The notes under the pieces: generated by a model
What the model was told of the DNA's origin: nothing
The model's input: the letters and a program-made list of their open reading frames with translations, nothing else
Databases searched by the model: none
Translations under genes and position numbers: made by a program
Shown here: in pieces, positions 1 through 55,800 of the stretch
Position numbering within the stretch: the stretch's first letter is position 1
Layout: each line of letters begins with the position of its first letter
IMG/VR virus record: IMGVR_UViG_3300023184_000029
Span: 122,543 to 186,542 of that record
Origin: a virus
Reading direction: 5' to 3' (one strand)
DNA: 64,000 nucleotides

Positions 1-2
1 TT

Positions 3-419
3 TTTAGTACTCAGGTTATAGATTGGACAGATGACCAAAGAAATTTAGTTAATATTACAAAAATGTATGATAATATATATGAAAATGAACATTGTCCCCC
101 AGATTCTATTATTAATGACGATGATATGCTTGATGGTTGGATGATTCTGCAAAGAAGAAAAAGAGAAAAAGAGAAGACTCAGCAAAGCATAGATGAGCTT
201 AATCCTAATCTTAAAAACGCTAATGAGGTTTTCTTATTTGCTAATAATAATGAGTCTTATGAAGAAATTACTTCTTTGAATAGCGCTGAAGCTAGTGCTA
301 GACTTAAGGAAAAGATGAATTATATTAAAACAGCGGGAACCGTAGATGATAGCAAACTCCCAGACGTACAAAGAGAACTATTACAACAACGAAATGATAT
401 GCTTAAAAATAGGAAATAA
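3..419 (+). CDS. 3' part of a conserved phage protein upstream of the tape measure gene
   Basis: The frame is open from the first complete codon, so the gene begins upstream and only its last 138 residues are visible; the first ATG in the window is at 63, but the codons before it read as normal coding sequence. Visible features are an acidic stretch with DDDMLDGWMI, then a basic helix (RRKREKEK) and a Gln/Glu-rich helical tail. There is no signal peptide or membrane segment. It lies 3 nt before the next gene and three genes upstream of the tape measure, where long-tailed phages keep tail-completion proteins and tail-assembly chaperones. That role is inferred from position; I do not recognise a named family. 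Confidence 0.65.
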   Translation, partial: FSTQVIDWTDDQRNLVNITKMYDNIYENEHCPPDSIINDDDMLDGWMILQRRKREKEKTQQSIDELNPNLKNANEVFLFANNNESYEEITSLNSAEASARLKEKMNYIKTAGTVDDSKLPDVQRELLQQRNDMLKNRK

Positions 420-422
420 ATT

Positions 423-755
423 ATGAATAATATAGAAAGATTATTATCTAATATTGAGACTAGAATTAAAACTACTATGATAGGTTCATTAGCTAGATTT
501 GAAGAATCTTTTGATCACTTATGGGAAGAAGATACTGAAAAAGCTGCTATGTATTATAACTTATGGGAACAAACCAGAAATAATATTTTAAATAATGGCA
601 ATAATCAATTAAGAGCAGCCATTGATGAATTATCAGATTATCTTTATAATAATGTGAGGGTTCCTAACAATAAGCCTAAATTTGAAAATAAGTATCATTA
701 TAAGTTGTTTTTTAATAATCCGGACCATAAAAATAATAAAGGAGACAGAGAATGA
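423..755 (+). CDS. conserved small phage protein, possible tail-assembly factor
   Basis: A 110-residue, mostly helical protein starting MNNIERLLSNIETRI, with a TTMIGSLARFEESFDHLW core and a basic, Asn/Lys-rich C-terminus. No catalytic motif, signal peptide or membrane helix is seen. It starts 3 nt after the previous stop without a clear Shine-Dalgarno, so translation is probably coupled. Its end overlaps the next gene in an ATGA arrangement. Its place between two other small genes and the tape measure suggests tail assembly, but this is positional inference. The ORF is convincing from codon use and tight packing; the function is not. Confidence 0.6.
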   Translation: MNNIERLLSNIETRIKTTMIGSLARFEESFDHLWEEDTEKAAMYYNLWEQTRNNILNNGNNQLRAAIDELSDYLYNNVRVPNNKPKFENKYHYKLFFNNPDHKNNKGDRE

Positions 756-1618
756 AGACTAAGACTTTTAAAGTAGAAGTAGATACCAAGGAAAGAGAGA
801 TACTAGTTAAATCTCCGTCTTTAAATGATCAGAGAGAGGCCCAGAAGATATATAATCAGGCTTTTACCGACGCTATCAAATCAAAGAGCGTTGTACGAGC
901 CAAGCTGGATGATTTGCTACAAGATCAGGGACTATGGAATGATGAAAAACAGGCTAAGTTTTCTGAACTACAAAGAAAACTACTAGACGGAGAAAAAAGA
1001 CTAGCAAAGGGAGGCTTTAGTTTAAATGAGGCCAAAGACTTGGCTATTGAGATGAAAGATACTAGAGATCAAATTAGAGATCTTATTAGTGTCAAAACTT
1101 CTTTGGATAATCATAGTGCTGAAGGACAAGCAGATAATGCTAGATTTAACTACTTAGTATCAGCCTGTGTGGTGTATAACGATACTAAAGAGCCAGTTTT
1201 TAGTAATATGGAAGATTATCTAAATAGGGGCTCAGAACAAGTAGCAGCACTTGCAGCTCAGAATTTGGCTAATATGCTTTACGGTTTGGATAATGATTAT
1301 GAAAGTAATTTGCCTGAAAATAAGTTTCTAAAGAAATATAAATTTATTGATGACAAATTAAGAATGATTGATAAAAAAGGAAGACTGATTGATTCAGAAG
1401 GAAGACTGGTGGATGAAAATGGTAGATTCATTGATGATCAGGGTAATTTTATTGATAAGTTTGGTAACAGAGTAGATGCAGACGGAGAATATATTGTTGA
1501 GACACAACCGTTTTTAGACGAAAATGGAAAGCCTATTATTGATGAAGACACTAGTGATAAACCAGAATCAAATCAATCAGTATCTGAAAATACTTCAGAG
1601 GAAAACAAGACTGGCTGA
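752..1618 (+). CDS. tail-assembly-region protein with heptapeptide repeats
   Basis: 288 residues. The start overlaps the previous stop (ATGA) and has a good GGAGA Shine-Dalgarno about 7 nt upstream. Residues 1-205 are charged and helical, with a beta-like beginning (KTFKVEVDTKEREILVKSP). Residues 206-247 are six tandem 7-residue units of the type I-D-x-x-G-R-L. The tail is acidic. I know similar proteins, ending in the same D-x-x-G-R style repeats, from large phages next to the tape measure gene. With that position, a tail-assembly chaperone or tape-measure partner is the best inference. I see no slippery heptamer that would produce a frameshifted G/GT pair. A terminator follows directly. Confidence 0.6.
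   Translation: MKTKTFKVEVDTKEREILVKSPSLNDQREAQKIYNQAFTDAIKSKSVVRAKLDDLLQDQGLWNDEKQAKFSELQRKLLDGEKRLAKGGFSLNEAKDLAIEMKDTRDQIRDLISVKTSLDNHSAEGQADNARFNYLVSACVVYNDTKEPVFSNMEDYLNRGSEQVAALAAQNLANMLYGLDNDYESNLPENKFLKKYKFIDDKLRMIDKKGRLIDSEGRLVDENGRFIDDQGNFIDKFGNRVDADGEYIVETQPFLDENGKPIIDEDTSDKPESNQSVSENTSEENKTG
1367..1492 (+). repeat. six in-frame 21-bp (7-residue) tandem repeats
   Basis: Six consecutive units read IDKKGRL, IDSEGRL, VDENGRF, IDDQGNF, IDKFGNR and VDADGEY, exactly 6 x 21 nt. The DNA has diverged more than the protein pattern, so this is an old repeat under protein-level selection and not a fresh slippage product. The regular D-x-x-G spacing suggests a beta-turn or beta-solenoid-like rod. 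Confidence 0.85.
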
Positions 1619-1653
1619 TAATATTTATTTTTTATTATATCGATTATATACAG

Positions 1654-1692
1654 ATCCCTGTGCGCTACTATTGTGCATAGGGATTTGTTTTT
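1654..1692 (+). terminator. Rho-independent terminator before the tape measure gene
   Basis: A 12-bp stem with two G-U pairs (arms ATCCCTGTGCGC and GTGCATAGGGAT) encloses a 7-nt loop and is followed by TTGTTTTT. It lies between the stop of the heptad-repeat gene and the tape measure start. It should limit read-through from the small upstream genes. I see no convincing promoter between it and the ATG at 1724, so the tape measure may depend on partial read-through. Confidence 0.7.
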
Positions 1693-1723
1693 ATACATTT
1701 AAATTCTAAGAGAAATTTTATAT

Positions 1724-4700
1724 ATGTCATCAGCTTTTAATTTAACCGCACAGCTAAATCTTAGAGGACCATCTAATATTGGAAATATAGTTTCTAATAT
1801 TCGTAGACAGCTTGGTACTATCAATAGCACTGTTAATTTAACAGTTAATCCAAACGCCGTTACCGGAGTTGGAAGACTTAATGCTTCATTGGTAACATTA
1901 AATACCACATTAGCCCAGACACAAACATCAGCAAATGCCGCAGCATCAGCAATTGCTAATTTTGCTCAAGCATTTAATACCAATGCTGTAGGTAGAACTA
2001 CACAACAGCTTAATGCTGCTGTAAATACTACTAATAATTTATCTAGAGCCACTTCTAATACTTCTAGACAAATTCAGATGGCTCATTCAGAAATGGCAGA
2101 GTTCGGTAGACAATCTTATCTAGCTATTAGAAGATTTGCTGCATTTAGTATAGTAACAGGAGGTGTTTTTGCATTAACCAATGCTATTAAAGGAGGTATT
2201 TCTGCTTATGTAGATTATAATCAAGAACTGGTTAAACTACAACAGGTTACCGGAGGATCCGCAGAATCTTTGAAGGGTTTGGAAAAAGAGATTACGGGCT
2301 TATCAACAAACTTAGGAGTTTCTTCTGGAGAGTTAACAAAAATTTCGTCTACTTTGGCTCAGGCAGGATTGAGCGCTAGAGATACTGAAAGAGCACTTAA
2401 GGCTTTGGCTTTAAGCTCATTAGCTCCGTCTTTTGATGATATGAATAGAACGGTAGAAGGTTCTATTGCTTTAATGAGACAGTTTGATATTAGTGCCAAA
2501 GATTTAGAGGCTTCATTAGGCTCTATAAATTCTGTTGCAGCAAAATTTGCAGTAGAATCTAGTGATATTATTGCTGCTATTCAGCGTACTGGTGGTGTGT
2601 TTGCTGCTGCTAGTAGAGGAGTAAGTGAAGGTAAACAGGCTTTAAATGAATTTATTGCTGTATTTACTAGTGTTCGAGCCACCACTCGTGAAAGTGCAGA
2701 AACTATTGCTACTGGCTTAAGAACTATCTTTACTCGTATCCAGAGAGGTAGTACTATTGAAGCGTTGAAAGAATTCAATGTTAATCTTACTGACGCTCAG
2801 GGTAAATTTGTTGGAGCTTACAAAGCTATTGAACTACTATCCAAAGGTTTGAGTAGCATAGATCCTAGAGATTTAAAGTTTTCTCAGATCGTTGAGGAGC
2901 TTGGTGGTTTTCGTCAGATAGGCAAAGTTATTCCCCTTATTCAGCAATTCGGCACTGCACAAGAAGCTTTAGCAGTAGCTCAACAAGGACAAGGTTCTTT
3001 GGCTGAGGATTCTATTAAAGCACAATTATCTTTAGCAAATCAAATATCCAAAGTAAGAGAAGAATTTTTAGCTTTATTTAGAGATATCGGGGGCTCTGAT
3101 AGTTTTCAGCTTTTAACTAAAGGAGCGCTTGGTCTTGCAAGTGGTCTCATTAAATTAGCCGATGGTGCTAAGGGTGTGTTGCCGGTATTAGGTATGCTTT
3201 TAGCATTTAAGGGAGCACAGGCTGCTACACAATTTGGATTAGGATTCGTAGGAGCTATGAGACAAGGCTCTACTGGTAGAAGACGAGCTAGTGGTGGACC
3301 CATCAATAGATATGCTGCTGGCGGGCCTGTGGATGTGGATGTTGCATTAATGCCGGGAGAAACTGTGGTATATCCTGATGCTGTTAGTAGGATTGGAGTA
3401 TCTAGATTAAGACAATTAAATCATGCGGATAAAAATGGAATAGCGGGTAAAAGAAGAGGAGGAAGAGTCTCTAAATTTTCTAAAGGAGGATATGCTGAGG
3501 TTCCTGGGTCTGGTCGCACAGATAGTTTTTATACTCAATTACCAGAAGGAAGCTTTGTTATAAGAACAGATGCTACAAGATCTCTTGGAGGACCAGATGG
3601 AGTAATGGATGCTGCTAGAAATCATGCATTTGGCGGAGATGTACAAAAATTTGAAAATGGTTCGTGGAGAGAGGTGAGAGCACAGGTACGATCTGGCAGA
3701 GGGAGACCATCTAAAACTAAGAGTACAGTAGGACAGGCTGTAGAAAAAATAGAATCTACAACATACGATAGAAAAGGAAGATTTAAAACGGATTTTCCTT
3801 TTATTATCAGAGGATTAAATAGAAAAGGTACGAAGCAAAAAATCAATGAAGAAGCAATATTAAAGGGGTACCTAAACCAAGGAGTAAACGATCTCTCTAA
3901 AGCTATTGTTGATAAAACACAAGGAAATATAACTATACCAACCGGTAATATTAATATTCAAAATAAAGAAAGTATTTATGGAGGATTATTCGAGACAGCT
4001 TTATTAAAAATTAGTGGTCGGTCAAAAGATAAAAAAGATAATAATCAAGCTTTTGATTTTCCAAGAGGTATAGGGTCAGCTTTATCTCCTATTTTTAGTG
4101 GTATGCCACCTGATATATCTACTGATGTTAAAAGAACAGCAGCTGCAAATGCTGCTCTGAAATCCAATATTGCTAATAAAATAGCAAATGATATGGCTTC
4201 TAATAGGCTTCCTCAAAAACCAACGCCCGTTGGAGTAGTATCACTATCCCCAATGGATTCTGCTATAGTTTCTAAAATTTCAGGAGTAGAAGTAGATAGA
4301 TTATTGAAAACTAAACTAAAAATAAAAGAACAAAAAAACAAAAAGAAGAGAAATGCTAAACGTAGAGCTGATAGATACTATGATAATGCTTTAGAAAACG
4401 CTATTAACATGATGCCATATGCTATAGGTGGTATTGTTCAAAAGTTTGGGGTTGGAGGAGAAGCAGAGCCAGTAAGGCGTACTGTTGGAATTATTGATTC
4501 TGACTCATGGAAAGGGGACTCTCCAGATATTGCCGCAGCGATGAAAGAGCTTGGCATTACTAAGCCCGATGAATATAAAGCTTATATGTCAAACTTAGCA
4601 GCTCAAAAAAGACAATCTAATGGAGTACGAAAACTCAGAGTAGCTACCGCAGTAGCAGCTGCTGGCAAGACCCGTATTGCTTTTGGTGGAGCTAGAGGTC

Positions 4701-7700
4701 AAGAAGCAGATAATGCAACATTACGAAAAACAACCAGAACACAAATAAGAGTACCAAGTGATTTCGACAAATTAGGACCCACCGACGATATTGTTGATAC
4801 AACTTCAGTAGTTACCCCTAGAAATTTGGGTGCGTTAAGAGCTGCTGACAGAATACGAGTTATTTCAACAAGATCCAAAGAAAGTCAAGAGAAGGTTGTT
4901 GAGAATAGAGACACTAGAGACATTCTTGGAGCATCTGGACAAGTTGATCCAACTGGAACTAATTTTGGACAATATGATCGTGAAGCAAAATCTGTTAGTA
5001 AAGCACCAAAAAATAGCGGCCCAATGGAAGCGTTATTAGCAGCCACAGAAGTTTCCGGAATTGATCCTAAAAAAATTGTAACAACAGATTTAGCCACCGG
5101 AAAAAGAATCTCACCTCCAAAAGTAAGAACCCCTGATAAGATGGGTGTTATGACCGGTAATTTTGGTCCTACTACACCAGCCCATGTGGAAATGGCAAAA
5201 ATAGGGGCTAAACAAGCAGGAATCAAACGTGAAAATGTAGTCGCTATGGTTGCTAACGATGTGCCTATAGATCCATTTAATAGAGATCCAGAAGCAGAAA
5301 GAACAGCGTATCTTCCACAAAAATCTAAAACAGGACCTTCTAGATACGGAATGGCCCAAGCTGTTTTTGGAGCTGAAGGCTTTTCTGTTCATGCTATGGA
5401 GAGAGGATCGTCTCCAAATTCTATGCCCTATGCTTTTCAAACTGGAGAAGATACAGATACATATATAGTTCCTAGTGATAAAACTAAAAAATTTGAAATC
5501 GGAGGAAGTGATAAGCCAGAAACATCAAGATATCCTGGATACGATCCCATAAGAGTTTCAAGAACTTCTGGACCAACAGCAGGAATAAGTGCTACTCTTG
5601 CTAGAGAAGCTATTAATAGTGGAAATATTAGTGAGATACAAAAATATCTTACGCCAGCAGGGCTCAAATATATTGAACCACATCTATCTCTTCTGAGAGA
5701 AAGACCAAAACTATTAGACAGTATTCTCGATAGACTTCAAAAAGGCAAAGGTGCTACTGCGAGTAAATATTTAGCTACTCTTGAAGAATTAAAAACACTA
5801 CCAGCAAGAAAAACTAAAACTACACCACCTGAAGTAGTAGCGAAGATGGAAGCTAAGAGAGAAGAAAGAGAGAGATACAAAAAAAAACTATTCGGATTAC
5901 CATCCAGAATGTTACGCAGATTAGAATCTAGACAGGCAAGAGCTATCGGTGGATTAGTTCAAAAATTTGGAAGAGGCACGGACAAACCCATAAAGTCTTT
6001 TAATGAGATGGGCAAATCAGAGCTATTGAAACAAGCGGAAAAATTAGGGGTTTTTGTTCCTATAGATTTTCGTAGACTATTAGATTCAAGAGCTATTGGA
6101 TCTGAAGAAATTAGAGCTAAAGTTATAAAAGAATTAGAAGATCAAAGAACCATCATAAAGGCTGCACAAGAAAAAACTTCAACCAGAGCTAAGAAAAGAA
6201 AAATAGGTGTTGTAGGATTAACAGGAGAAAGTTCGTCTACTGAACTCACCACCCCTGGTTTAAAAAGCAAAAAAGGTGGGCGCGGTTTAACAGGCGTTCC
6301 GGCAACTTTAGAAACAGGGTCGTTACCATCCGATTTATCAAAACAAGTACAAGCTATTATTCGTAATCAAAGCGAAAGAATAGCAGCAAGAGTAGGAAGA
6401 TTGATAGCGACTAGAGCAGGATCGTCTCCTGTTACAGATAAAAAACAAATTAGAGCTATTGTTAGCAAACAATTGGATAATATCTCGGGGTTATTATTTG
6501 AGAGTGGGTTAGCAGTTGCAGGAGCACCATATGACCCAACAGAAAAAACCGGTCCAGATTTTAGTAGAGGTTTGGGTAAAAAATTAGGAGCTTTATTTGG
6601 TGTTGATCCTAAAGCAATGACAGACGCTACTAATCAAGCTGTAAAAGACGTGGCTAAAGCCAAAGTAACTAAAGGAACTTTTGATAGAGGTCGCAGAAAC
6701 GCTATCAGAACAAAAAGATTAGCTAGAAATTTTGGAGGCATGATTCAAACATTTGAAATAGGCGGACAGCCTTCTCTTAGCAGATCTTCTAAAGATAAAC
6801 GATTTGATCCTAAAAAATTAGCAGCTTTTCTAGGAGCACAAACTCCAACTAGCAATAAAGCAAAAGACTTAGCAGAACGATTAAAAGATTCTAGTTCATC
6901 AGCTATTAGTAAGCCTAATTATGAAGAATTATTAAAGGGATTAAAAGGATATGCTAAAGGAGGAGAAATACCAATAGTAGCCCAAGAGGGTGAATATGTT
7001 ATAAATAGAACATCGGCTAATCAGATAGGACGCCACAATCTAGATAAACTAAATATTGGAGGCAGGGTAGGACTAGATAACTTGCCAAAGTATCATACCG
7101 GAGGCATAGTTAGATATAATAAAGGGGGATCCGTACAGAAATTAGCTGTTGGCGGAGAGATAGATAATGCATTATCTGGAATGTCTAATAAAGACACTAT
7201 TAGATTAAGAGCTAGTATACAAAAAAACTCTCAAGCTTTTGAACAATTAGCTAAATTAGTTTCTGGCTGGAAAGTTGAAGATGTTGGAATGGCGATGAAA
7301 AGATTAGATCGCTCTTTAGAAAAAGGTGTGTCTCAAGCAGATGCTTTAGCACAAAGCGTGGTTGCTGGTACTACTAGTGCTGCTAGACAACCATCCAAAG
7401 CTAGAGGTCCAAATATTTTAGGAGGAACACCAGATACTAGAAATGCCGGGACGGTTGGTAGAACAGGAGATTTTAAACAAATAACGGGACTAAGTAACAG
7501 TAAAGGCCAGCCGCTTAAAGTCAATGGGCCCGGTGATGTTCAAGCTACTTTAGATAGGATAGCCCCAAAAATTACTGCTAGATTTAATAGATTAGGCTTT
7601 ACTACTGAAGCTACAGAAAAAGCACTTCTAGTTTTTAATACACAGGTTAGACAAACCGGGGATGCAAACCAAGCATTTAGAGCCGCTGTTCAGAGCGGCA

Positions 7701-10700
7701 AGGATTCTATGACTATGGTAGGTCGGACGGGAGTTGGTGCTACCGTTTCTGGTATGACAAGAGAGAAAGGATCGACCACTCCTGAGCAAAGACTAGCCAG
7801 GAAAAAGCAGAATAGAGCGGATGATAGATTCGGTATGTTTCAAGGAGCCACCATAGGTGGGTGGGCTGGTTTTGCGGCTGGTGGAGCTATCGGTGGATTA
7901 GCTGGGGCTCCGCTAGGAGGAGTTATTGGAGCTGTTGGAGGAGCCGTAGCAGGCTCTGAAAGAGGCAACCGTATAAGATCTATGCAGTACGAAGCAGGAG
8001 CAGACAAGCTTAAAGCCAGAGCTAGTAATATGGCTCAAGGAGGATCTTCAGGATCAGCGACATTAGCATTACTTAATAAGGCTATGAGTCCATTAGTATA
8101 TAAAGCAGCCCAAGTTAGTAGTGGTATGTCAAAATTGCATTTAGGAGCCGCACAATTATCTTCTTCTTTAAATAAAGGAGCATCAGCAGTAGTTTCGTGG
8201 GGTTCTGGTATTAAAAATTCTCAGGGGCCTATGGATGGTTTTAAGAAAACTGTAGGAGGAGTCGGTTCTTTACTTAAAAATTCTTTCTCCTCATTAGCCA
8301 AAGGAGCAGATGCCGCTGTTGGTAAATTAATGGGATTAAAGAAAGTAGATATTGGAGGGGGTAAACAAGGATGGAGAAGTGCTGCTGCTACTATGGGAGC
8401 AGATGGTGTTACCAGAGATGCTAGTGGTAGAAGAGCCAGGGGTTTTGGTGGAGGGGGAGGAGGAGGAAGAGGGGGTAGAGGAGGAGGAGGAGGTATGGGA
8501 GGTGGTATGGGTATGTATGGACTAAGCATGGGAATACCTATGGCCGCTCAAATGTTTGGTACTCAAGAAGCCCAAACAGAGACTCAAGCTTCTAATAATG
8601 CTTTTGTTGAACAATCTTCAAACGCTGTTGGAGGAGCTTTAGCAATGGCTACTATGGGAGGACCAATAGGAATTATTGCAGGATTAGGAACCGCTGCGGC
8701 TGGTATAGCAACAGCCTTTGTAACCGCTGAGAATGCTGTTAATGAGTTTGGAAAAAATAAAGCAGCAAAACAAATGGAACAGAGTAGTGAAAAAATATCT
8801 AATATTTTAACAGAAATTAGCAACGCAGGCGCTGCAACACCAGCTGCCCTTGAGCAACTTAAAACGGCTCTAGATTCTAGCACCTCAGCCGCTTTAACAT
8901 TTGCCGAAAAGAGCGGAACCAAAAAAGGTAGTTTTGTACAAGATATAGTTGGAAATAGTAATTTGGGAGCATTACTAGGATCATTAGAAGGAGCTACAGA
9001 TAATAATGATGCTCAAGGAGCTATTAATAGATCTCAAATTCTAGACAAAAAAGGCATATTTGCCTATTTGGCATCTGCTGGAGATAAAGATACAGAACTA
9101 TCGAATATTCGTGATCTTATTCCTGATATGGCAAACGATATATCTAAAAGCTTTGCTATACCAGCTGATAATATTAAGAAAGCTTTTGAACAAAGAACTC
9201 GTTCTGGAGAATCGTCAGCGAGTATAACGTCATCACCAGAATTTGCTAAACAAGCAGAGATTTTAGCAAGATCAAATCCAGAAGCAGAAAAACAATTACA
9301 ACTTATACAAGCAGACACAAGATTAAGTGAACAGGACAAAAGAGCCAGAAGAGAAAATATCATAGCTGCATATGGAAATGCTGCTGCCATGAAAGCTATT
9401 AAAACAACTGAGACTCAAATGGCAATAGAAGCTCTTGGTAAATCAGCTAGAAACTTTAGTTTTAGTTTAAAAAGAATGTTCAATAATATGGATATTGCTA
9501 TAGCAGCATCGTCTAATTCATTACAATCTTTATCAGAAAAACTAGAATTAAGTGCCGCTTCTGCCGGTGGCAATGCCAAAGTTGGTAAATCTAGTGAAAT
9601 ACAGAGTATGATAGACGTATTAAAAAATCCAAGAGGTTATTCTGACACTCAAAGATCTACTGCTATGAAGGGAGCCTCATCAGTATTTGGACCACAATCT
9701 GGTAATATGGAAAAAATGTTAAATTTGGGAGCAAATATTGAAGACACTTTAATGTCCACTATTAATAGTACATTACAAGCAAATAGCGGAGCTAATAATG
9801 AAGAAGTTGGAGCCAAAGTAGAATCTGCTGTTAAAGATAAATTAAAGAGTTTGAACTTTCCACCAGATCTGGCCAATAAATTAACAGGACAAGTACAAGC
9901 CGCTGTTAGTAAGATGAGAACTAGAGGAGACGAGAAGCTTGACTTTTCTAAGCTAATGGAGGAAATAGGACCACTAGCTAATAGTATAGAGAGTCTTAAA
10001 GGAGCCTCAGATTCAGCAATCAGGGCCTTAGAATTTATAAAGAATTCTTTTGATCAACTATCTGACGCTACTAATCAGATAACAGATATACAAGTACAAA
10101 ACAATAGTAGGCTTAGAAATGCTCAAAATATTTTAGTAACAGGCACAAGAAATTTAGATAGAGCATTAGGCAAAGACATAAAATTATCTGATACTAAAAC
10201 AGATTTCAATAATCAAACAAGAAGTTTCACCGGCGGAGCCACTGACCCTTCTGCTATTAGAAGAAATATTCAAAATCTAGAAACACAAAGAAATCAACAA
10301 CAAACAGGACTAGATCAGGCTAAAGCTTCTACTGATATGGGAGGAGTTCTAGCTTTCAGTGATGGTTTGGTAAAAACTAATAGCGCTATTAGAGAGAACG
10401 TCGCAGCATTAGAGCAACTAGCACAGAATGGAGATTTAGCATCTGCTGCATTAGATCAAGTTAGTAAAATACAAGCAAAGCAAGCAGCTGGAGTATCTAT
10501 TGTTGAAAGATTGGTGACTAGCACTCCTGGTGAACTTAATAATCTTAATCAAGCATTTAATAGACTCACCAATAATATGCAAGGAAAAGCTAATTTTGGC
10601 ACTAGTGCTGATCAGAGAAAAGAATCATTAGATGTTCTTAATATGATTATGCCATTTTTAGGAGATAAACAAGGAGGAGTTAAAGCTAATATTTTACAAT

Positions 10701-13700
10701 CTCAATTACAAGAATCTGGTATACAAAGCAATCCTTTTATTGATCAAGTACTAGGCTCTTTAAGAAATCCAGAAGCTGATCCTGAGATGAAAGCTGCTAC
10801 AGATACTTATCGAGAAGCAATTACAACACAATCAGAGGCTAATATTCAGTTGGCTAAAATTAATACTGATTTGGCCGGGAATATCGCAAGGAGTACGGCA
10901 GACGCTGTAGCTGCTGCTATAAAAAATACTCCTCTTAATTTTAGTCAGATGCAAACTTCTGATGAACAAAAGGGTATAAATAAAGTACCAACAATGGCTA
11001 CGGGAGGAGTAGTATATAAATCAGTTGGGGGGAATATTTTTCAACCAAAAGGAACAGATACTGTACCAGCAATGTTGACTCCTGGAGAATTTGTTGTTAA
11101 TAGGAGTGCTACTCAAAGAAATCTGCCATTACTGAAGAGTATCAATAGCTATAGTTCAGGAGGAGCTGTCAAATATTATGCTTCTGGAGGCATGGTTGAT
11201 GTTAGAGATTCTGGGTCTGGGGCTTCAGCCGGAAAAAGTATCCTATCCGAATCAGCGACTGCTACTGATGACGTACGACTAACCAAAGAAGAATATCCTG
11301 TTTTATCAGAGAATTTAGTTAAAAATATTCTAACCAAAACAGATGAGGTTTCTCGTTTATACGGTACTCCAGCAACTGTTTATGGATCATATAATACTGA
11401 CCAAGATTTTACAGGACCTATTATTGCTAAATTAGACAAAGAAGCATTTAAAGCCAAAACTGATGGTCTGGGCATTAATGAGATTAGAAGATATCTAAAG
11501 ACTTTTAATACCTCTTTTGATCTAACACCGGACAATTGGGAGTTAGGAGCATCTAATCCTATTGGTATCGGTATTGATAGAGAAGAAAAAAAAGGATACC
11601 TTTGGGGAACCGTTATGGAGGGAAGTAATCTGCCAACATTTGAAAAATATAATACTACAGGCGTTGGTATGAGCAGAGAAGAAGAATTAGCTAATATTTT
11701 ATTACCTTATCAGGCAATACAGACTAATGCATTAGAAACTCATAGTAAAAAGTATAGAATAAGTAATAATACCACAGGGGGTAAAGATTTTAAAAACTAT
11801 AAGATTGAGGATCCAGATAGCTCATTTCTATCTAAACAAACACAGCTTGATCTATTGAATACTTTAGTAACTAAATTGGCCGGCTCTACGATAAATAATG
11901 ACGATACACTTGGTAAAAAAATACTTTCAGCAGAAGACAAATACACAGGGGATAGAGAATATAAAAACGGCAATAAACAGTCTCTGGACAAAATACTAGA
12001 AAGATCACTATTTATTACAACCAAACCAGTAAAAGATAAATATTATAATGCACAATGGACAAACGCCAAGCCTCAAGGATTAGTTACCGGTAATGGTAAT
12101 GCTTTAACAACTGTTCAAAAAACTACCTCTTTCATGGGAACGAATCTAAAAGGTAGAAAACAATTAGGAGCAGCTAATACAGACGTTTTGCGCCCTGGTG
12201 TTCTTGAGAACACAGCAAAAGGTACTGATGTTGAGAGTAAACAAAAATATATAAAGGAAAGATTAAAATATTTCGAAGAGTTAAAAAATCAATATGAAAA
12301 TATTAATAATTTTACTATTATTAATAGCAGTAAAGCTTCTAATAATAAAATGAATACTTTATTAGAATCATTGTACGATGATAATTTGAGCGGTCTCTTT
12401 GTTTCTATTCCTAAAAATCAATTATCATCAAGCTGGGGAGATTACGGGAAAATTACTGATTTTGCTTATATATATAGAAAACAATTTAATGATAAATGGA
12501 ATAGAATTGTTAATTCTTATAAAGATAATAAAGATCATGTATTTTCTAGCGATAGTAATAAACTAAACATAGTTAAGGATAGTACTGCGCAGTCTTTTAA
12601 TTGGAGTAATAAGCCAATAGATCTTGATCGTATCAAAGATATTGTATCTGATATAGAAGAAAAAAACAAGAAAAGAGAAAGTCTTTTTCAATTGGATGAA
12701 GCAGCAACATCTCATGCTTTCGAAGTAGCTATAGGATCAGAAAAATATGAAGGCAAATTTAATACTCAAAAAATAAAGATACCCAAGTTAACAGAAGAAA
12801 AAGGATATATTCCACCAACAGATGAATTTCTAGATGGATTCTTATTATCCTCATCCAAAGAAGCTCCTCTACTAAATCCATTTTTAGAGGCTAAACAGCA
12901 ACTATTTACATCACAAGACCCCGCATTAATAGCACAGTTATTATCAGGATCCTATAATACAAAAGAACCTTTAAAATTAGATAATATAGACTTAGTAAGA
13001 CTTCTTACACAAGAAGAAGGAATACAGGGAGGTATAGATGCATTAGATATAGATAAAGCATATACGTTAATTCCCGATCCCAAACCAGAGATTTTCTTAT
13101 TCCAGCAATTAGAAGATGCCAAAAATAGAATGATGGAACAGAGAGGAGAAACAACACTCCAGCCTTCTGCTAAACTTGCTACCAGTGTGGATAGAAAAGG
13201 AAAAAAAGCAAAAGCTTCATGGCTTAGAAAATCTTATCTTGATTATGCCAATGAAGCAATTAAAAATATTATTCTACCATCTATAGGAGTATTCAAAAAA
13301 TTTATTCCTAATTTTGGTTTAACTAAACTTGATAGTTCTAATCAATTTAAATCATACTCAGAAGGTTTAAATAAACTACAAACAGAATTTGGAAAAAGAA
13401 TAACCAATAATAAAGGAGATTTTCTTAATGATCAGCTAGGATCAGCTTGGGGAAATGTTGGGGCAGTATCGAAATTTATTGGAGCCCTATCCCTATCAGA
13501 TCCTTCCAAAGAACTAGGATCTATATTAGGGGCTGGAGAATTTGATTTAGAAAAAGTGAAAAATGTCACACCACTTTTTGAAAAAATTAAATCCTATGGT
13601 CAAATACTAAAAGGTGCCGGAAAAAGTAAAATAGCTGCAGAAATGATTTTAGCAGAGACTAATGAGAAAGGGGTGGCTACGGATAAGAAAATTCCAGAAG

Positions 13701-14833
13701 CAGAACAGCAAGCAGTAGATAGGGCTATTAGAGATACTGTTGGCACTGGTGAAACAGCCACCGTTGATAATAAAACCGGCATTATAACATATAAAAAATT
13801 AACAGATAAAGATACTCCTAAAAGCATAAGAGAGCTAGGAGCACTATCTCTAAATCCCTATAGCTTTTTCCCCGCACAAGCTAGACAAAGTCTTATAGAT
13901 CAATTATTATCATTTTTCCCTGCCGATAATAAAAATAAAAATTTAGATAAAGTCAAAACTGATATAACTGCACTTAAAACTTGGTATCGCTCTCAAGATT
14001 CATATTTATCATCAAAAGATCCTACAGCAGATGATAGTAAATATCTTGATGATAATTATAATACGGCTAATACAAGCTTACAAAATTTAACCGCTGGATT
14101 TTTTGGACTCTTACCAAGTCGTATTAAATTAGACGAGATGAAAAAAGCTAAAGAGAGCAGGGATCAAAAGGCGCCAGAATTTCAGAAACCACAGACCAGA
14201 GCTAATGGTGGTCTTATTTATGCTAGTAATGGAACACTTGTAAACTTTGCTCCTCGTGGTACTGATACCGTTCCTGCTATGTTAACCCCTGGAGAGTTTG
14301 TTGTTAATAGACGAGCTACTCAGAATAATCTTCCATTATTAAAAAGTATTAATAGTGGTAATTATAGTACAGGAGGAGTAGTTGTTCAGCCGAAGTACTT
14401 TGATAGAGGAGGACTAAACATAGGGAATGCTGTATCTGCTGGTATATCTAGCCTACTAGGATTAGATTCTGTTTCTTCTACAATCCTAGGCTCTTTTAGT
14501 AAGAGTTTTAGTCGAAATGTAAAATCATTATCAACTATTAAATTTGATTTTGGACAAAAGGTAATGGGGGACTTTGTTTCTAGCTTAAATTCATTAACTA
14601 AACAATTATCTTCTATAGATATTCCTCCCACTATTAATATTAGTGCTACTCATGAAGTAAATATTAATCTTAAAGAAGGAGCTAGTATATTACAAAGTAT
14701 TGAGCAGACTATAGCGTCTAGCGTAGTAGCAGAAGTTGGTAAACAGATAGACGAATTAAGAAAAGTGATAACAAAAAATAACGACGGGGCCTTGGAGTTA
14801 GGAAGTCCTTCCAAACCAGCAGGCAAACCATAA
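1724..14833 (+). CDS. giant tail tape measure protein with embedded domain cassettes
   Basis: 4369 residues. Residues about 130-480 are a TP901-type phage tail tape measure core: a membrane-like segment (IVTGGVFALTNAIKGG), then conserved helices with LVKLQQVTGGSAESL and TRESAETIATGLRTIFTRIQ. Residues 520-1810 hold blocks separated by GGxVQKF-type motifs. One block contains nucleotidyltransferase motifs GNFGPTTPAH (1145-1154) and ISATLAR (1288-1294). Residues 2030-2350 include glycine-zipper and membrane-like segments and a poly-Gly stretch near 2240-2270. A long helical region follows. Two near-identical copies of a TPGEFVVNR motif (residues 3110 and 4179) flank about 1000 unrecognised residues. 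If all of it were extended helix at roughly 0.15 nm per residue it would span about 650 nm; embedded globular domains make the real tail shorter. The gene sets tail length and probably enters the host during ejection. Confidence 0.93.
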   Translation: MSSAFNLTAQLNLRGPSNIGNIVSNIRRQLGTINSTVNLTVNPNAVTGVGRLNASLVTLNTTLAQTQTSANAAASAIANFAQAFNTNAVGRTTQQLNAAVNTTNNLSRATSNTSRQIQMAHSEMAEFGRQSYLAIRRFAAFSIVTGGVFALTNAIKGGISAYVDYNQELVKLQQVTGGSAESLKGLEKEITGLSTNLGVSSGELTKISSTLAQAGLSARDTERALKALALSSLAPSFDDMNRTVEGSIALMRQFDISAKDLEASLGSINSVAAKFAVESSDIIAAIQRTGGVFAAASRGVSEGKQALNEFIAVFTSVRATTRESAETIATGLRTIFTRIQRGSTIEALKEFNVNLTDAQGKFVGAYKAIELLSKGLSSIDPRDLKFSQIVEELGGFRQIGKVIPLIQQFGTAQEALAVAQQGQGSLAEDSIKAQLSLANQISKVREEFLALFRDIGGSDSFQLLTKGALGLASGLIKLADGAKGVLPVLGMLLAFKGAQAATQFGLGFVGAMRQGSTGRRRASGGPINRYAAGGPVDVDVALMPGETVVYPDAVSRIGVSRLRQLNHADKNGIAGKRRGGRVSKFSKGGYAEVPGSGRTDSFYTQLPEGSFVIRTDATRSLGGPDGVMDAARNHAFGGDVQKFENGSWREVRAQVRSGRGRPSKTKSTVGQAVEKIESTTYDRKGRFKTDFPFIIRGLNRKGTKQKINEEAILKGYLNQGVNDLSKAIVDKTQGNITIPTGNINIQNKESIYGGLFETALLKISGRSKDKKDNNQAFDFPRGIGSALSPIFSGMPPDISTDVKRTAAANAALKSNIANKIANDMASNRLPQKPTPVGVVSLSPMDSAIVSKISGVEVDRLLKTKLKIKEQKNKKKRNAKRRADRYYDNALENAINMMPYAIGGIVQKFGVGGEAEPVRRTVGIIDSDSWKGDSPDIAAAMKELGITKPDEYKAYMSNLAAQKRQSNGVRKLRVATAVAAAGKTRIAFGGARGQEADNATLRKTTRTQIRVPSDFDKLGPTDDIVDTTSVVTPRNLGALRAADRIRVISTRSKESQEKVVENRDTRDILGASGQVDPTGTNFGQYDREAKSVSKAPKNSGPMEALLAATEVSGIDPKKIVTTDLATGKRISPPKVRTPDKMGVMTGNFGPTTPAHVEMAKIGAKQAGIKRENVVAMVANDVPIDPFNRDPEAERTAYLPQKSKTGPSRYGMAQAVFGAEGFSVHAMERGSSPNSMPYAFQTGEDTDTYIVPSDKTKKFEIGGSDKPETSRYPGYDPIRVSRTSGPTAGISATLAREAINSGNISEIQKYLTPAGLKYIEPHLSLLRERPKLLDSILDRLQKGKGATASKYLATLEELKTLPARKTKTTPPEVVAKMEAKREERERYKKKLFGLPSRMLRRLESRQARAIGGLVQKFGRGTDKPIKSFNEMGKSELLKQAEKLGVFVPIDFRRLLDSRAIGSEEIRAKVIKELEDQRTIIKAAQEKTSTRAKKRKIGVVGLTGESSSTELTTPGLKSKKGGRGLTGVPATLETGSLPSDLSKQVQAIIRNQSERIAARVGRLIATRAGSSPVTDKKQIRAIVSKQLDNISGLLFESGLAVAGAPYDPTEKTGPDFSRGLGKKLGALFGVDPKAMTDATNQAVKDVAKAKVTKGTFDRGRRNAIRTKRLARNFGGMIQTFEIGGQPSLSRSSKDKRFDPKKLAAFLGAQTPTSNKAKDLAERLKDSSSSAISKPNYEELLKGLKGYAKGGEIPIVAQEGEYVINRTSANQIGRHNLDKLNIGGRVGLDNLPKYHTGGIVRYNKGGSVQKLAVGGEIDNALSGMSNKDTIRLRASIQKNSQAFEQLAKLVSGWKVEDVGMAMKRLDRSLEKGVSQADALAQSVVAGTTSAARQPSKARGPNILGGTPDTRNAGTVGRTGDFKQITGLSNSKGQPLKVNGPGDVQATLDRIAPKITARFNRLGFTTEATEKALLVFNTQVRQTGDANQAFRAAVQSGKDSMTMVGRTGVGATVSGMTREKGSTTPEQRLARKKQNRADDRFGMFQGATIGGWAGFAAGGAIGGLAGAPLGGVIGAVGGAVAGSERGNRIRSMQYEAGADKLKARASNMAQGGSSGSATLALLNKAMSPLVYKAAQVSSGMSKLHLGAAQLSSSLNKGASAVVSWGSGIKNSQGPMDGFKKTVGGVGSLLKNSFSSLAKGADAAVGKLMGLKKVDIGGGKQGWRSAAATMGADGVTRDASGRRARGFGGGGGGGRGGRGGGGGMGGGMGMYGLSMGIPMAAQMFGTQEAQTETQASNNAFVEQSSNAVGGALAMATMGGPIGIIAGLGTAAAGIATAFVTAENAVNEFGKNKAAKQMEQSSEKISNILTEISNAGAATPAALEQLKTALDSSTSAALTFAEKSGTKKGSFVQDIVGNSNLGALLGSLEGATDNNDAQGAINRSQILDKKGIFAYLASAGDKDTELSNIRDLIPDMANDISKSFAIPADNIKKAFEQRTRSGESSASITSSPEFAKQAEILARSNPEAEKQLQLIQADTRLSEQDKRARRENIIAAYGNAAAMKAIKTTETQMAIEALGKSARNFSFSLKRMFNNMDIAIAASSNSLQSLSEKLELSAASAGGNAKVGKSSEIQSMIDVLKNPRGYSDTQRSTAMKGASSVFGPQSGNMEKMLNLGANIEDTLMSTINSTLQANSGANNEEVGAKVESAVKDKLKSLNFPPDLANKLTGQVQAAVSKMRTRGDEKLDFSKLMEEIGPLANSIESLKGASDSAIRALEFIKNSFDQLSDATNQITDIQVQNNSRLRNAQNILVTGTRNLDRALGKDIKLSDTKTDFNNQTRSFTGGATDPSAIRRNIQNLETQRNQQQTGLDQAKASTDMGGVLAFSDGLVKTNSAIRENVAALEQLAQNGDLASAALDQVSKIQAKQAAGVSIVERLVTSTPGELNNLNQAFNRLTNNMQGKANFGTSADQRKESLDVLNMIMPFLGDKQGGVKANILQSQLQESGIQSNPFIDQVLGSLRNPEADPEMKAATDTYREAITTQSEANIQLAKINTDLAGNIARSTADAVAAAIKNTPLNFSQMQTSDEQKGINKVPTMATGGVVYKSVGGNIFQPKGTDTVPAMLTPGEFVVNRSATQRNLPLLKSINSYSSGGAVKYYASGGMVDVRDSGSGASAGKSILSESATATDDVRLTKEEYPVLSENLVKNILTKTDEVSRLYGTPATVYGSYNTDQDFTGPIIAKLDKEAFKAKTDGLGINEIRRYLKTFNTSFDLTPDNWELGASNPIGIGIDREEKKGYLWGTVMEGSNLPTFEKYNTTGVGMSREEELANILLPYQAIQTNALETHSKKYRISNNTTGGKDFKNYKIEDPDSSFLSKQTQLDLLNTLVTKLAGSTINNDDTLGKKILSAEDKYTGDREYKNGNKQSLDKILERSLFITTKPVKDKYYNAQWTNAKPQGLVTGNGNALTTVQKTTSFMGTNLKGRKQLGAANTDVLRPGVLENTAKGTDVESKQKYIKERLKYFEELKNQYENINNFTIINSSKASNNKMNTLLESLYDDNLSGLFVSIPKNQLSSSWGDYGKITDFAYIYRKQFNDKWNRIVNSYKDNKDHVFSSDSNKLNIVKDSTAQSFNWSNKPIDLDRIKDIVSDIEEKNKKRESLFQLDEAATSHAFEVAIGSEKYEGKFNTQKIKIPKLTEEKGYIPPTDEFLDGFLLSSSKEAPLLNPFLEAKQQLFTSQDPALIAQLLSGSYNTKEPLKLDNIDLVRLLTQEEGIQGGIDALDIDKAYTLIPDPKPEIFLFQQLEDAKNRMMEQRGETTLQPSAKLATSVDRKGKKAKASWLRKSYLDYANEAIKNIILPSIGVFKKFIPNFGLTKLDSSNQFKSYSEGLNKLQTEFGKRITNNKGDFLNDQLGSAWGNVGAVSKFIGALSLSDPSKELGSILGAGEFDLEKVKNVTPLFEKIKSYGQILKGAGKSKIAAEMILAETNEKGVATDKKIPEAEQQAVDRAIRDTVGTGETATVDNKTGIITYKKLTDKDTPKSIRELGALSLNPYSFFPAQARQSLIDQLLSFFPADNKNKNLDKVKTDITALKTWYRSQDSYLSSKDPTADDSKYLDDNYNTANTSLQNLTAGFFGLLPSRIKLDEMKKAKESRDQKAPEFQKPQTRANGGLIYASNGTLVNFAPRGTDTVPAMLTPGEFVVNRRATQNNLPLLKSINSGNYSTGGVVVQPKYFDRGGLNIGNAVSAGISSLLGLDSVSSTILGSFSKSFSRNVKSLSTIKFDFGQKVMGDFVSSLNSLTKQLSSIDIPPTINISATHEVNINLKEGASILQSIEQTIASSVVAEVGKQIDELRKVITKNNDGALELGSPSKPAGKP
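3626..3660 (+). repeat. cassette-boundary motif 1 in tape measure (AFGGDVQKFENG)
   Basis: First of five short GG-x-(V/I)-Q-(K/T)-F-type motifs spaced through the N-terminal half of the tape measure. It ends a region with TMP-type Gly-Gly motifs and precedes the block with the first E..D..DVK signature. Role unknown; similarity to the other four copies is visible at protein level only. Confidence 0.5.
3968..4143 (+). other. tape measure block with possible PD-(D/E)XK-like core, copy 1
   Basis: Residues about 749-806 contain GGLFETALL, then AFDFPRGIG, then TDVKRT. The spacing E ... D-F ... D-x-K resembles a reduced PD-(D/E)XK nuclease core. A diverged second copy lies at 6481-6660. The block is followed by a Lys/Arg-rich helix and boundary motif 2. 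The nuclease reading is tentative; the duplication is the better supported part. Confidence 0.3.
4421..4458 (+). repeat. cassette-boundary motif 2 in tape measure (AIGGIVQKFGVGG)
   Basis: Second copy of the GGxVQKF-type motif. It follows a strongly basic helix (KEQKNKKKRNAKRRADR) and precedes the block carrying the Walker-A-like and nucleotidyltransferase motifs. Confidence 0.5.
5129..5690 (+). other. embedded HxGH-type nucleotidyltransferase-like domain in tape measure
   Basis: Residues about 1136-1322. Two motifs are seen in the right order and spacing for the cytidylyltransferase/NMNAT/PPAT superfamily: G-N-F-G-P-T-T-P-A-H at 1145-1154 (compare GxFxPxTxGH, with Ala replacing the second Gly) and I-S-A-T-L-A-R at 1288-1294 (ISxTxxR), followed by EIQKYLTPAGLKYI as in the C-terminal helix of such enzymes. 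The motifs are about 140 residues apart, a normal distance for the fold. Substrate and activity cannot be told from sequence. Confidence 0.6.
5941..5976 (+). repeat. cassette-boundary motif 3 in tape measure (AIGGLVQKFGRG)
   Basis: Third GGxVQKF-type motif. As with the second, it follows a basic helical stretch (REERERYKKKLFG) and here closes the nucleotidyltransferase-like block. Confidence 0.5.
6481..6660 (+). other. tape measure block with possible PD-(D/E)XK-like core, copy 2 (degenerate)
   Basis: Residues about 1586-1646: SGLLFESGLAVAG, PDFSRGLGKKLG and TDATNQAV align with GGLFETALL, FDFPRGIGSALS and TDVKRTAA of copy 1. The lysine of the D-x-K position is replaced by Thr, so any nuclease centre would be broken here. 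A basic stretch (RGRRNAIRTKR) and boundary motif 4 follow. Confidence 0.3.
6728..6766 (+). repeat. cassette-boundary motif 4 in tape measure (NFGGMIQTFEIGG)
   Basis: Fourth GGxVQKF-type motif, again directly after a basic segment. A fifth, weaker copy (NKGGSVQKLAVGG) lies at 7118-7156. The region after 6950 (YAKGGEIPIVAQEGEYVINR) is a related form of the TPGEFVVNR motif. Confidence 0.45.
11051..11146 (+). repeat. 32-residue TPGEFVVNR repeat, left copy
   Basis: Residues 3110-3141 begin GTDTVPAMLTPGEFVVNR and end NLPLLKSIN. Twenty-nine of 32 residues match the copy at 14258-14353, while codons differ at many third positions. This is a known style of motif in long tail tape measures. It is flanked on both sides by Gly-Gly segments. 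Confidence 0.9.
14258..14353 (+). repeat. 32-residue TPGEFVVNR repeat, right copy
   Basis: Residues 4179-4210, the partner of the copy at 11051. The two copies bracket about 1040 residues with no similarity that I recognise. A final roughly 160-residue helical tail of the tape measure follows. Confidence 0.9.
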
Positions 14834-53314: not shown

Positions 53315-54940
53315 TTAGGATATGGGCTCAAAGCATTTATCAACAATCAATCCGTCTTTACTCTTCGCTCTATTTCCTGTAAAAATGAGAATATTTCCTT
53401 CAAATATATGGGTTTTATATTTAGTCCATTGCTCTGGGAAAAATATTACTGAATCTAGTATGCCTGTTTGATCTTCTATACTAACAAAAGCCATTTCTTG
53501 ACCAGGATTTTTACCGGTCTTGGTTTTAATAATATTAATACCAGTTATTTCTCCGGCAATTATAATTTTGGAAGATATTGAGGATGTTTTAAATGTTTTA
53601 CAGTCTGTGTTCGACATACTAATATCGTATGAATCAAGTTTAGAACAAGAAATAGAAACTCCCAGAAGACTACTTTCACTATCAGATAGCCATTCTATTT
53701 TATCTGTTAAAGAAAATGGAGGATTTTTAAGAGCATTAATACTATTTTGAATGACTTCTTGTCTTTTTTTTAAGATTTTAAAATTACTCAACATATATTC
53801 TAATATAAGTATTAAAGACTTAGAGTCCTTATTAAGGGATAGTGAGCTAATAAAATACTCTAGCTCTTTTTTTGTTAAGATAGCACATATCTCATATTCA
53901 AATAATAATTCTATTCTATTCTTCTTGAAATAATCAAAACAACCAGTAGATATCATGGCTTTAGCCGCCACAGAATTAATATTTAATAGTATATTATATA
54001 CAATCTCATACCAGGATAGTTCTTCGATTTTTTTATCTGCTGATAGATTTAATATTTTCTGGTATACAGATTGACCCACCCCTTTAATATCTGTCAAACC
54101 AAAATAAATGTCTTTGTTTTTCAATATAAAAAATTGATTTAGATTTCTGAAATCTGGATTCTTAACCAAGATATTCATTTCATTTGCATTTCTAACTAGT
54201 TCTTTTATTTCTTGCTGTGGGTCTATCTTATCTTTTGCAAATTTAAGATATGATGCAAAAAACACTCTGGGGAAATGAGATTTGGCATAAGCCGATAGAT
54301 ATGCATTGATAGCATAACTTACAGCATGGGATTTATTAAAACTATATCTTTGACTTTTTTCTATCCAGCTGAAAATCTCTTCTGCTTGTTCTAGTGTTAC
54401 TATTTGTTTTTCTTTGGTTCCTTCCAAAAATCTTTTTTTAACTTTGGCCATTTCTTCTGGCTTTTTCTTACCTATTGCCTTTCTCAACATATCTGCTTCT
54501 TGTAGATTGAAGCCAGCAACTGTTTGAGCAATTTGCATAGATTGTTCCTGATATATCATTTCTCCATATGTAGATTTTAAAGATTCCTCCAAAATAGGAT
54601 GAAAATAATCTACGCTCTCTAATCCATTCTTTTTGTCTATAAAATGATTGGATACAGATTTTCCTTCTCTAATAGCCTCTAAAGATCCTGGTCTCATAAT
54701 ACTAATCAGAGCCGATAATTGCTCAATATTTTCTGGTTTCAGTTTTTTGGCCATAGTCTGTCCAAGTCTAGATTCTAGTTGGAAACAGCCCTTAGTATTG
54801 CCAGAGGAAATAAGATCCCAGGTCTTAGAACAGAATAGGTTAATCTCTTCTATTTTAGGAGAAAAATTTATTCTAGTACTATTATTTTCTTTCAAGACAG
54901 GAAATTTACAACCACAGTTAAATGTCAAGTAATCAGGCAT
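53315..54940 (-). CDS. dnaE: DNA polymerase III alpha subunit, C-terminal half (fingers to OB domain)
   Basis: 541 residues. After a 35-residue N-terminal piece with two close cysteines (FNCGCKF), the sequence continues the DnaE fingers: TWDLISSGNTKGCFQLES (residues 40-57), LSALISIMRPG, YGEMIYQEQSMQIAQ, LRKAIGKKK and YSFNKSHAVSYA. Then come the tandem helix-hairpin-helix region (YFGLTDIKGVG) and an OB domain near the end (GILDSVIFFPEQW). The catalytic aspartates are in the partner gene at 55793. It overlaps the exonuclease gene by 8 nt. No intein motif is present at its start. Confidence 0.92.
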   Translation of the reverse strand: MPDYLTFNCGCKFPVLKENNSTRINFSPKIEEINLFCSKTWDLISSGNTKGCFQLESRLGQTMAKKLKPENIEQLSALISIMRPGSLEAIREGKSVSNHFIDKKNGLESVDYFHPILEESLKSTYGEMIYQEQSMQIAQTVAGFNLQEADMLRKAIGKKKPEEMAKVKKRFLEGTKEKQIVTLEQAEEIFSWIEKSQRYSFNKSHAVSYAINAYLSAYAKSHFPRVFFASYLKFAKDKIDPQQEIKELVRNANEMNILVKNPDFRNLNQFFILKNKDIYFGLTDIKGVGQSVYQKILNLSADKKIEELSWYEIVYNILLNINSVAAKAMISTGCFDYFKKNRIELLFEYEICAILTKKELEYFISSLSLNKDSKSLILILEYMLSNFKILKKRQEVIQNSINALKNPPFSLTDKIEWLSDSESSLLGVSISCSKLDSYDISMSNTDCKTFKTSSISSKIIIAGEITGINIIKTKTGKNPGQEMAFVSIEDQTGILDSVIFFPEQWTKYKTHIFEGNILIFTGNRAKSKDGLIVDKCFEPIS

Positions 54941-55628
54941 TTAAAAAAGACCCTTTAAATTTAACTTTCTTAGATACATTGCGATGTAGTTTCAGGAATC
55001 TTATTAGAATTTCTGCTGTATCTTTAACATCTTTAAGAGCATCATGAGAACCTTCTTTGCTCAGACCTAAATATTCCCTTATATGATCTAATTGATAGTT
55101 TTTAATATCATTATTAGATTCAAACCAACAAAATACCATATTCATCACATCTAGAACATCTCTTGGATAAAAGAGACTAGACTTTCCTTCTTTATTCGTG
55201 TGATTATATCTGGTGCTCAATTTCTGAACAATAGGTAAATCAAATCTGTTAATATTATAGCCAGCAGCAATAGGAGCAGAAAAACACGACTTTTTAGATG
55301 TTCTGGTATGATACATTTCCAAATATTTAACGAACATATTCCATCCCTGTTCTTGTTTTTGATATTTTTTCCAAGAATCCAATATAGAAGCCTTAGAACA
55401 ATTTCTAACTTTTGCATGAAAATCTAGCACATCACTATCGTGATAGTCATAATTCTCGTCTTTCTCAAGGGCTTCTGGTTTAAGATTAATATTGAATTCG
55501 GAATCTTTGATAATTTCTAATTTAATAGGATCTACAATCAAAGAGGCTATCTGAACAGGACTACAAATATCTGGATTAGCACCATCAGTTTCTAGATCGA
55601 ACACACAAATTTTTTGGAAATTAGGCAT
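54933..55628 (-). CDS. DnaQ-type 3'-5' exonuclease (proofreading)
   Basis: 231 residues. DEDDh exonuclease: Exo I is FDLETDG (D11, E13), Exo II lies in GYNINRFDLPIVQKL, and Exo III is HDALKDVKDTAEIL. It resembles the proofreading subunit of polymerase III. Encoded exactly between the two polymerase halves, overlapping the C-terminal half by 8 nt and the small gene upstream by 8 nt, so it is probably made in equal amounts and acts with the split polymerase. Confidence 0.9.
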   Translation of the reverse strand: MPNFQKICVFDLETDGANPDICSPVQIASLIVDPIKLEIIKDSEFNINLKPEALEKDENYDYHDSDVLDFHAKVRNCSKASILDSWKKYQKQEQGWNMFVKYLEMYHTRTSKKSCFSAPIAAGYNINRFDLPIVQKLSTRYNHTNKEGKSSLFYPRDVLDVMNMVFCWFESNNDIKNYQLDHIREYLGLSKEGSHDALKDVKDTAEILIRFLKLHRNVSKKVKFKGSFLNA

Positions 55629-55800
55629 TAACTGTCACCGTTGTTGAGTCTTGGAAAAATTTTCTATTATTAGGATCTCCCTTTATATGAGCATTGATAG
55701 ACTGACAGCAACTAATTCTAACTGTGTCTGTCTTAGTATACTCTATACCATCTGCAAAAAAATTAGCACCTACTGCAACCTCACTAAAGTTTTTATTCAT
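55621..55800 (-). CDS. 59-residue conserved-type phage microprotein
   Basis: Starts MNKNFSEVAVGANFFADGIE, contains YTKTDTVRISCCQSINA and ends FFQDSTTVTVNA. It has a good GGAG Shine-Dalgarno 8 nt from the ATG and overlaps both neighbours by 8 nt, which is the local pattern for real genes. The form (F-x-x-V-x-V-G-x-x-F, then Y-x-K, then V-x-V) matches a family of tiny beta-rich proteins widespread in large phages, usually of unknown function. Its position inside the polymerase cluster is notable. Confidence 0.7.
   Translation of the reverse strand: MNKNFSEVAVGANFFADGIEYTKTDTVRISCCQSINAHIKGDPNNRKFFQDSTTVTVNA

Follow-up and report, generated by a model that had tools for sequence, protein, structure and literature searches.

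To our knowledge, the established enzymatic domains of tape measure proteins (TMPs) are mainly cell-wall hydrolases. The locus described here raises the question of whether a TMP can also hold a nucleotidyltransferase (NTase) domain and, if so, what such a domain would do in a phage tail. The first-pass annotation of this DNA had noticed two NTase signature motifs inside a putative TMP, in the order and at the distance of the superfamily, and had proposed an NTase-fold domain that could be delivered into the host or serve a structural role. We followed this up in the window, by which we mean the whole stretch of 64,000 nucleotides that was analysed and with which a viral record of 186,542 bp ends (Table 1). 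The long ORF is a tape measure protein, both by its great length and by its family matches to PF10145 (PhageMin_Tail; E 2e-22 at aa 188-393) and PHROG 28 (tail length tape measure protein; E 6.2e-30).

Table 1. Features of the tape measure gene discussed in the text (residues of the TMP, positions in the window).
Feature	Residues (aa)	Position	Strand	Basis or remark
Tape measure protein (TMP) gene		1724..14833	+	4369 aa, one open frame
Linker GGIVQKF	902-908	4427..4447	+	Just before cassette
P-loop domain (predicted), N-terminal cassette half	914-1108	4463..5047	+	Alignment A3, AF2
Walker A position, AVAAAGKT	976-983	4649..4672	+	Weakened relative to the GVAGSGKT of relatives
HIGH-type NTase domain (predicted)	1133-1345	5120..5758	+	Alignments A1, A4; PDB profile matches; AF2; Foldseek
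GNFGPTTPAH, HIGH-type motif	1145-1154	5156..5185	+	Kept in relatives
ISATLAR, ISxTxxR motif	1288-1294	5585..5605	+	Kept in relatives
Linker GGLVQKF	1409-1415	5948..5968	+	After cassette
Interval swapped for a diverged version in L002		4466..6775	.	blastn

Elsewhere in the window, three ORFs lie on the minus strand at 53315-54940, 54933-55628, and 55793-57673. Two of them match consecutive portions of a single DNA polymerase family of phages (PHROG 405), with DnaE/Pol III alpha as the closest annotated phage matches, and a 231-aa ORF sits between both polymerase parts. The region 53315-57673 reads as a split polymerase gene, perhaps caused by an inserted element.

Signature motifs and nucleotidyltransferase fold

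Both motifs that had been noticed are present at the residues given in Table 1, with EIQKYLTPAGLKYI directly after ISATLAR. There are 134 residues from the end of GNFGPTTPAH to ISATLAR, a family-like spacing. As a chance test, the residues of the TMP were shuffled 20,000 times, and a pair was counted when both motifs occurred at a spacing of 80-200 aa. On average, a shuffle contained 0.0002 copies of a loose form of the first motif and 0.043 copies of the second, and the pair was absent from all 20,000 shuffles vs. exactly one occurrence in the real TMP. The best evidence against chance motifs is their conservation across homologues: GxFxPxTxGH-type and [IF]S[AG]TxxR motifs (e.g., GGFAPTTAGH and ISGTMVR in relatives) are conserved across 24 distinct homologous cassettes, with the second His of the HIGH-type motif in 23 of them, the final Arg of [IF]S[AG]TxxR in all 24, and an invariant Arg between both motifs.

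The single NTase domain returned nothing useful, either by tblastn against isolated phages or in a direct search of viral contigs, and light-harvesting proteins returned by phmmer against the PDB were rejected as spurious; profiles built from relatives were therefore needed. With these family profiles, the PDB sequence matches are all HIGH-type proteins, including MJ0951 (1.2e-5), NadD, NMNAT, RibF-like proteins, several PPATs, glycerol-3-phosphate cytidylyltransferase, and MJ0541, and the regions of the HIGH motif and of ISxTxxR align with their counterparts in 5llt and 9x6f. PHROG families of cytidyltransferases (PHROG 395 and PHROG 3041) match the domain family as well, and PF16581 is found in 10 of 11 family members and PF01467 in 4 of 11.

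As checks on the fold, the first-pass annotation had suggested a comparison with PF01467 (CTP_transf_like) and a structure prediction followed by a Foldseek search. In the former, PF01467 is matched near full length in four relatives, whereas the window domain alone stays below the Pfam cut-off (14.4 vs. 21 bits) and the best TMP relative scores 20 bits, against a cut-off that is a database threshold and not a structural criterion. For the latter, the AF2 model of the domain is predicted with a mean pLDDT of 84.6 and a pTM of 0.81, and its top Foldseek matches are NTases throughout, with NMN/NaMN adenylyltransferases (NadM, NadD) and PPAT leading at probability 1.00 and FAD synthetase near 1.00. 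In BFVD, the Foldseek matches are cytidyltransferase-like viral proteins with 10-17% identity.

From the profiles and the predicted model together, it is almost certain that a HIGH-type (CTP_transf_like) NTase fold lies inside this TMP, as the annotation had proposed. That a fold unrelated to NTases happens to contain two short motifs with a matching spacing has next to no chance of being true: the sub-threshold Pfam score of the window domain and its spurious PDB matches would fit such a coincidence, but it is refuted by the shuffles, the conservation in 24 homologues, the exclusively HIGH-type profile matches, and the agreement of AF2 and Foldseek.

The domain resembles NMNAT/NadM, NadD, PPAT/CoaD, RibF, and UPF0348 MJ0951 (PF01467, PF16581) in motif order and spacing, in the conserved Arg, and in a Rossmann-like model. 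It differs from solved HIGH-type NTases in lying within a TMP, in sharing 13-20% identity with them, and at the position of the first His, where the cassette has TxxH instead of HxGH. Since TM-scores in Foldseek reach no more than moderate values (0.3-0.45 by query length, at most 0.64 by target), the assignment is to the superfamily and not to a substrate class. The hints at a substrate differ among methods: the best Foldseek matches are NadM and NadD, the best sequence match is MJ0951, and PPAT and cytidylyltransferases match too.

P-loop partner and cassette boundaries

The NTase domain is the C-terminal half of a cassette of ~430 aa (aa 914-1345), of which a P-loop domain is the N-terminal half. 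This partner, its linker-bounded cassette, the exchange of the cassette between near-identical phages, and its spread in the TMP lineage all go beyond the first-pass annotation. The P-loop domain (~195 aa) lies upstream of the NTase in all cassettes aligned. Across 18 relatives (alignment A3) its motif reads G[VA]A[GA][SA]GK[ST], with G[VA]AGSGK[ST] in most of them, and there are invariant Asp and Arg positions. AF2 predicts an alpha/beta domain (mean pLDDT 80.3), for which Foldseek found no confident match (probability at most 0.41). The sequence thus indicates a P-loop domain, and that it might be a kinase is a guess: no kinase fold was recognised in it by profile or structure search, and the matches obtained were UvrA-type P-loops and one thermoresistant glucokinase P-loop.

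In NadR, the NTase comes first and the kinase (P-loop) domain after it. The cassette resembles NadR and the phage fusions of a P-loop kinase with a HIGH-type NTase (e.g., ALP47012.1; PMC7824862) in joining both domains in one chain, and differs from NadR in having the P-loop domain first and in lying within a TMP; a nicotinamide riboside kinase identity of the P-loop domain is unsupported. The cassette may act in NAD metabolism in the manner of NadR. A partner NAPRTase gene was looked for in 13 related records and found in none.

The cassette is bounded by linkers (Table 1), and in 15 of the 24 homologous cassettes the start lies at most 10 residues from a GGxVQKF-type linker. When TMPs were split at these linkers in order to cluster all cassettes, long fragments chained together and no clustering was obtained. 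Across the TMPs compared, the layout is a mosaic in which the N-terminus is conserved, the cassettes vary, and the core is conserved to a moderate degree. A second variable region (aa ~3150-4180) in the window TMP is bracketed by a 98-nt direct repeat, 80% identical and encoding GTDTVPAMLTPGEFVVNR, at 11051-11148 and 14258-14355 of the window, and this region could be a second cassette site with terminal repeats.

Distribution, exchange, and state of the alleles

The annotation had asked whether related tape measures share the domain, and half of them do. A search with the TMP N-terminus retrieved 33 related viral contigs, and an iterated profile search then found a homologous NTase domain in the TMPs of many of these; a further search with the extended cassette yielded 23 additional loci, of which several lie on contigs that had been found before. 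Among 22 distinct TMPs found by their N-terminus (window included), 11 contain the cassette. Conversely, all cassette-bearing ORFs whose N-terminus was retrieved have the TMP N-terminus, the exceptions (L001 and L039) being clipped stretches of a long TMP-type frame. When thirteen viral records were searched over their whole length, 9 contained one copy each, always in an open frame of 4376-7737 aa, and among the loci recovered no cassette lies outside a TMP-type frame. The upper bound is set by the L026 contig, in which the cassette-bearing frame (around G003 155648-156277) is 7737 aa and far longer than the window TMP. Separate small CTP_transf_like genes, apart from the TMP domain, occur on the L026 contig (G003:C1:85645-85929; 148 aa, E 2.6e-19) and on the L044 contig (G010:C1:24058-24366; 151 aa, E 5e-14).

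The TMP lineage with the cassette was found only in metagenomic viral contigs. The TMP N-terminus had no relative in the bacterial genomes searched and only remote ones in isolated phages (22-28% identity), and no TMP with such a domain was found in the open-access literature, which leaves out most subscription journals.

The cassette is exchanged between phages. Over positions 1-4465, the contig of L002 and the window share 99.06% identity, and at 6776-6941 they share 99.4% (blastn), whereas inside the intervening interval only diverged islands of 72-84% identity remain, and the divergence begins exactly at the cassette start. L008 and L055, in turn, have near-identical cassettes (dS 0.04-0.11) on TMP N-termini with a dS of 1.44. 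For the NTase, dN/dS is 0.04-0.25 in the other pairs tested and 0.35-0.48 in those of the window, as simple Nei-Gojobori estimates with dS above 1 in several pairs; these values indicate purifying selection on the cassette that is weaker in the window lineage. The replacement in L002, the near-identity of L008 and L055, and the dN/dS values together show a cassette that passes between phages as one unit and is constrained in most lineages, less so in that of the window.

The window allele itself departs from the consensus. Its first motif ends in PAH and not xGH, and given its weakened P-loop the copy may be partly degraded; perhaps only the half for nucleotidyl transfer is still functional, or activity may be in the course of being lost. 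In L002, a Tyr replaces the second His of the HIGH-type motif and the P-loop is broken. With the His or P-loop altered in these two, some alleles look inactive. One might regard the domain as an active enzyme in relatives that is a decaying, functionless passenger in the window lineage, for which these lesions and the higher dN/dS of the window pairs would speak. We consider this quite improbable, since the window copy keeps the second His, the Arg of ISATxxR, and the invariant Arg and Lys positions, its frame is uninterrupted, and its dN/dS remains clearly under 1.

Possible roles of the cassette

Besides the NTase cassette, other effector-like domains are predicted in sibling TMPs. The TMP of L029, which lacks the NTase cassette, matches an ADP-ribosyltransferase exoenzyme-type family (PF03496; E 2.9e-15, two stretches) at aa ~1590-1670, and weaker ADP-ribosyltransferase matches are found in the TMPs of L060 and L046. 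Weak staphylococcal-nuclease-like matches occur in those of L040 and L044, and the L040 ORF (from 4577), a TMP frame of >5300 aa, combines such a match with the NTase cassette. Relatives match the NTase together with an ADP-ribosyltransferase or, weakly, a nuclease, while the other cassettes of the window TMP gave no match to Pfam. By eye only, HExxH and HAD-like motifs were seen in the L040 TMP, and metallopeptidase-, HAD-, and protein-kinase-like motifs in TMPs of the family.

Tape measure proteins are ejected during infection. That the cassette is carried, absent, or swapped among related phages suggests that the TMP serves as a delivery vehicle too, and the modular, effector-like context favours delivery, which we infer, over a purely structural role. 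On these sequences and predicted models, we lean somewhat towards an exchangeable payload cassette (a P-loop domain, possibly a kinase, plus an NMNAT/PPAT-like NTase) that would be injected with the TMP and act on a nucleotide or NAD-type metabolite. The cassette would then be a payload and not part of the ruler: it would ride with the TMP in the tail, be expelled into the host cell together with the DNA or before it, refold there, and phosphorylate and/or nucleotidylate a small molecule, presumably a nucleotide or NAD-type metabolite. This would help the phage at the very start of infection, for instance if NAD or nucleotide pools were kept up or a defence signal were changed. In this scheme, we infer the delivery step, the substrate, and the activity.

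Alternatively, an exapted NTase fold may have a structural or assembly role as a globular spacer, a chaperone-binding domain, or a tail-plug domain, binding a ligand at most and not acting as an enzyme inside the host cell. The family matches of the TMP identify it as a tail component, catalytic positions are lost in some alleles (L002, and the P-loop of the window), and the delivery step of the payload scheme is conjectural, all of which fit this explanation. Half of the related TMPs, however, have no cassette, so that it is unnecessary for tail assembly; moreover, nearly all alleles keep the signature residues under purifying selection, and neighbouring cassettes are enzyme-like too. We therefore regard a structural role as unlikely.

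A wider form of the payload reading, to which we would give slightly less than an even chance, is that the TMPs in this lineage combine two purposes: their conserved backbone would act as the ruler and also hold a linker-punctuated rack of interchangeable cytosolic enzymes (P-loop/NTase, ADP-ribosyltransferase, nuclease-like, and others), swapped by recombination and injected as a preloaded arsenal before phage gene expression.

Several known systems offer partial parallels. In cyanophages, virion-associated cytidyltransferases and kinases were detected by proteomics of virions, and their entry into the host has been proposed, with contamination of the virion preparations considered possible by the authors (PMC10665884). 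Like the cassette, the cytidyltransferases of cyanophages and marine Caudovirales (PHROG 395, PHROG 3041, BFVD) are phage HIGH-type NTases, some of them in large multidomain proteins; unlike it, they are not reported in a tape measure, and identity is 10-17%. Polyvalent proteins of phages and conjugative elements similarly consist of unrelated enzyme domains strung together in a single chain of great length, which is presumed to enter along with the DNA (PMC5512222, in which tape measure proteins are not mentioned), whereas the domains in the present case form a different set and are carried by the tail ruler. In contractile injection systems, the TMP-related effectors Tme (PMC11126660) and Sle1 (PMC13277306) are TMP-derived proteins with a functional domain that can be replaced. 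Theirs works after ejection, as the cassette presumably would; those effectors belong to bacterial injection systems and have C-terminal domains, whereas the cassettes here are internal to a phage TMP.

If the payload reading is correct, the tail ruler, with its swappable, metabolic-type enzyme, would double as a platform for effector delivery. Phage tails would thereby be connected with the effectors found in contractile injection systems, and one could predict, and test, which proteins are the first to enter the cell. In this lineage, moreover, tail length could then not simply be read off from the length of the TMP.
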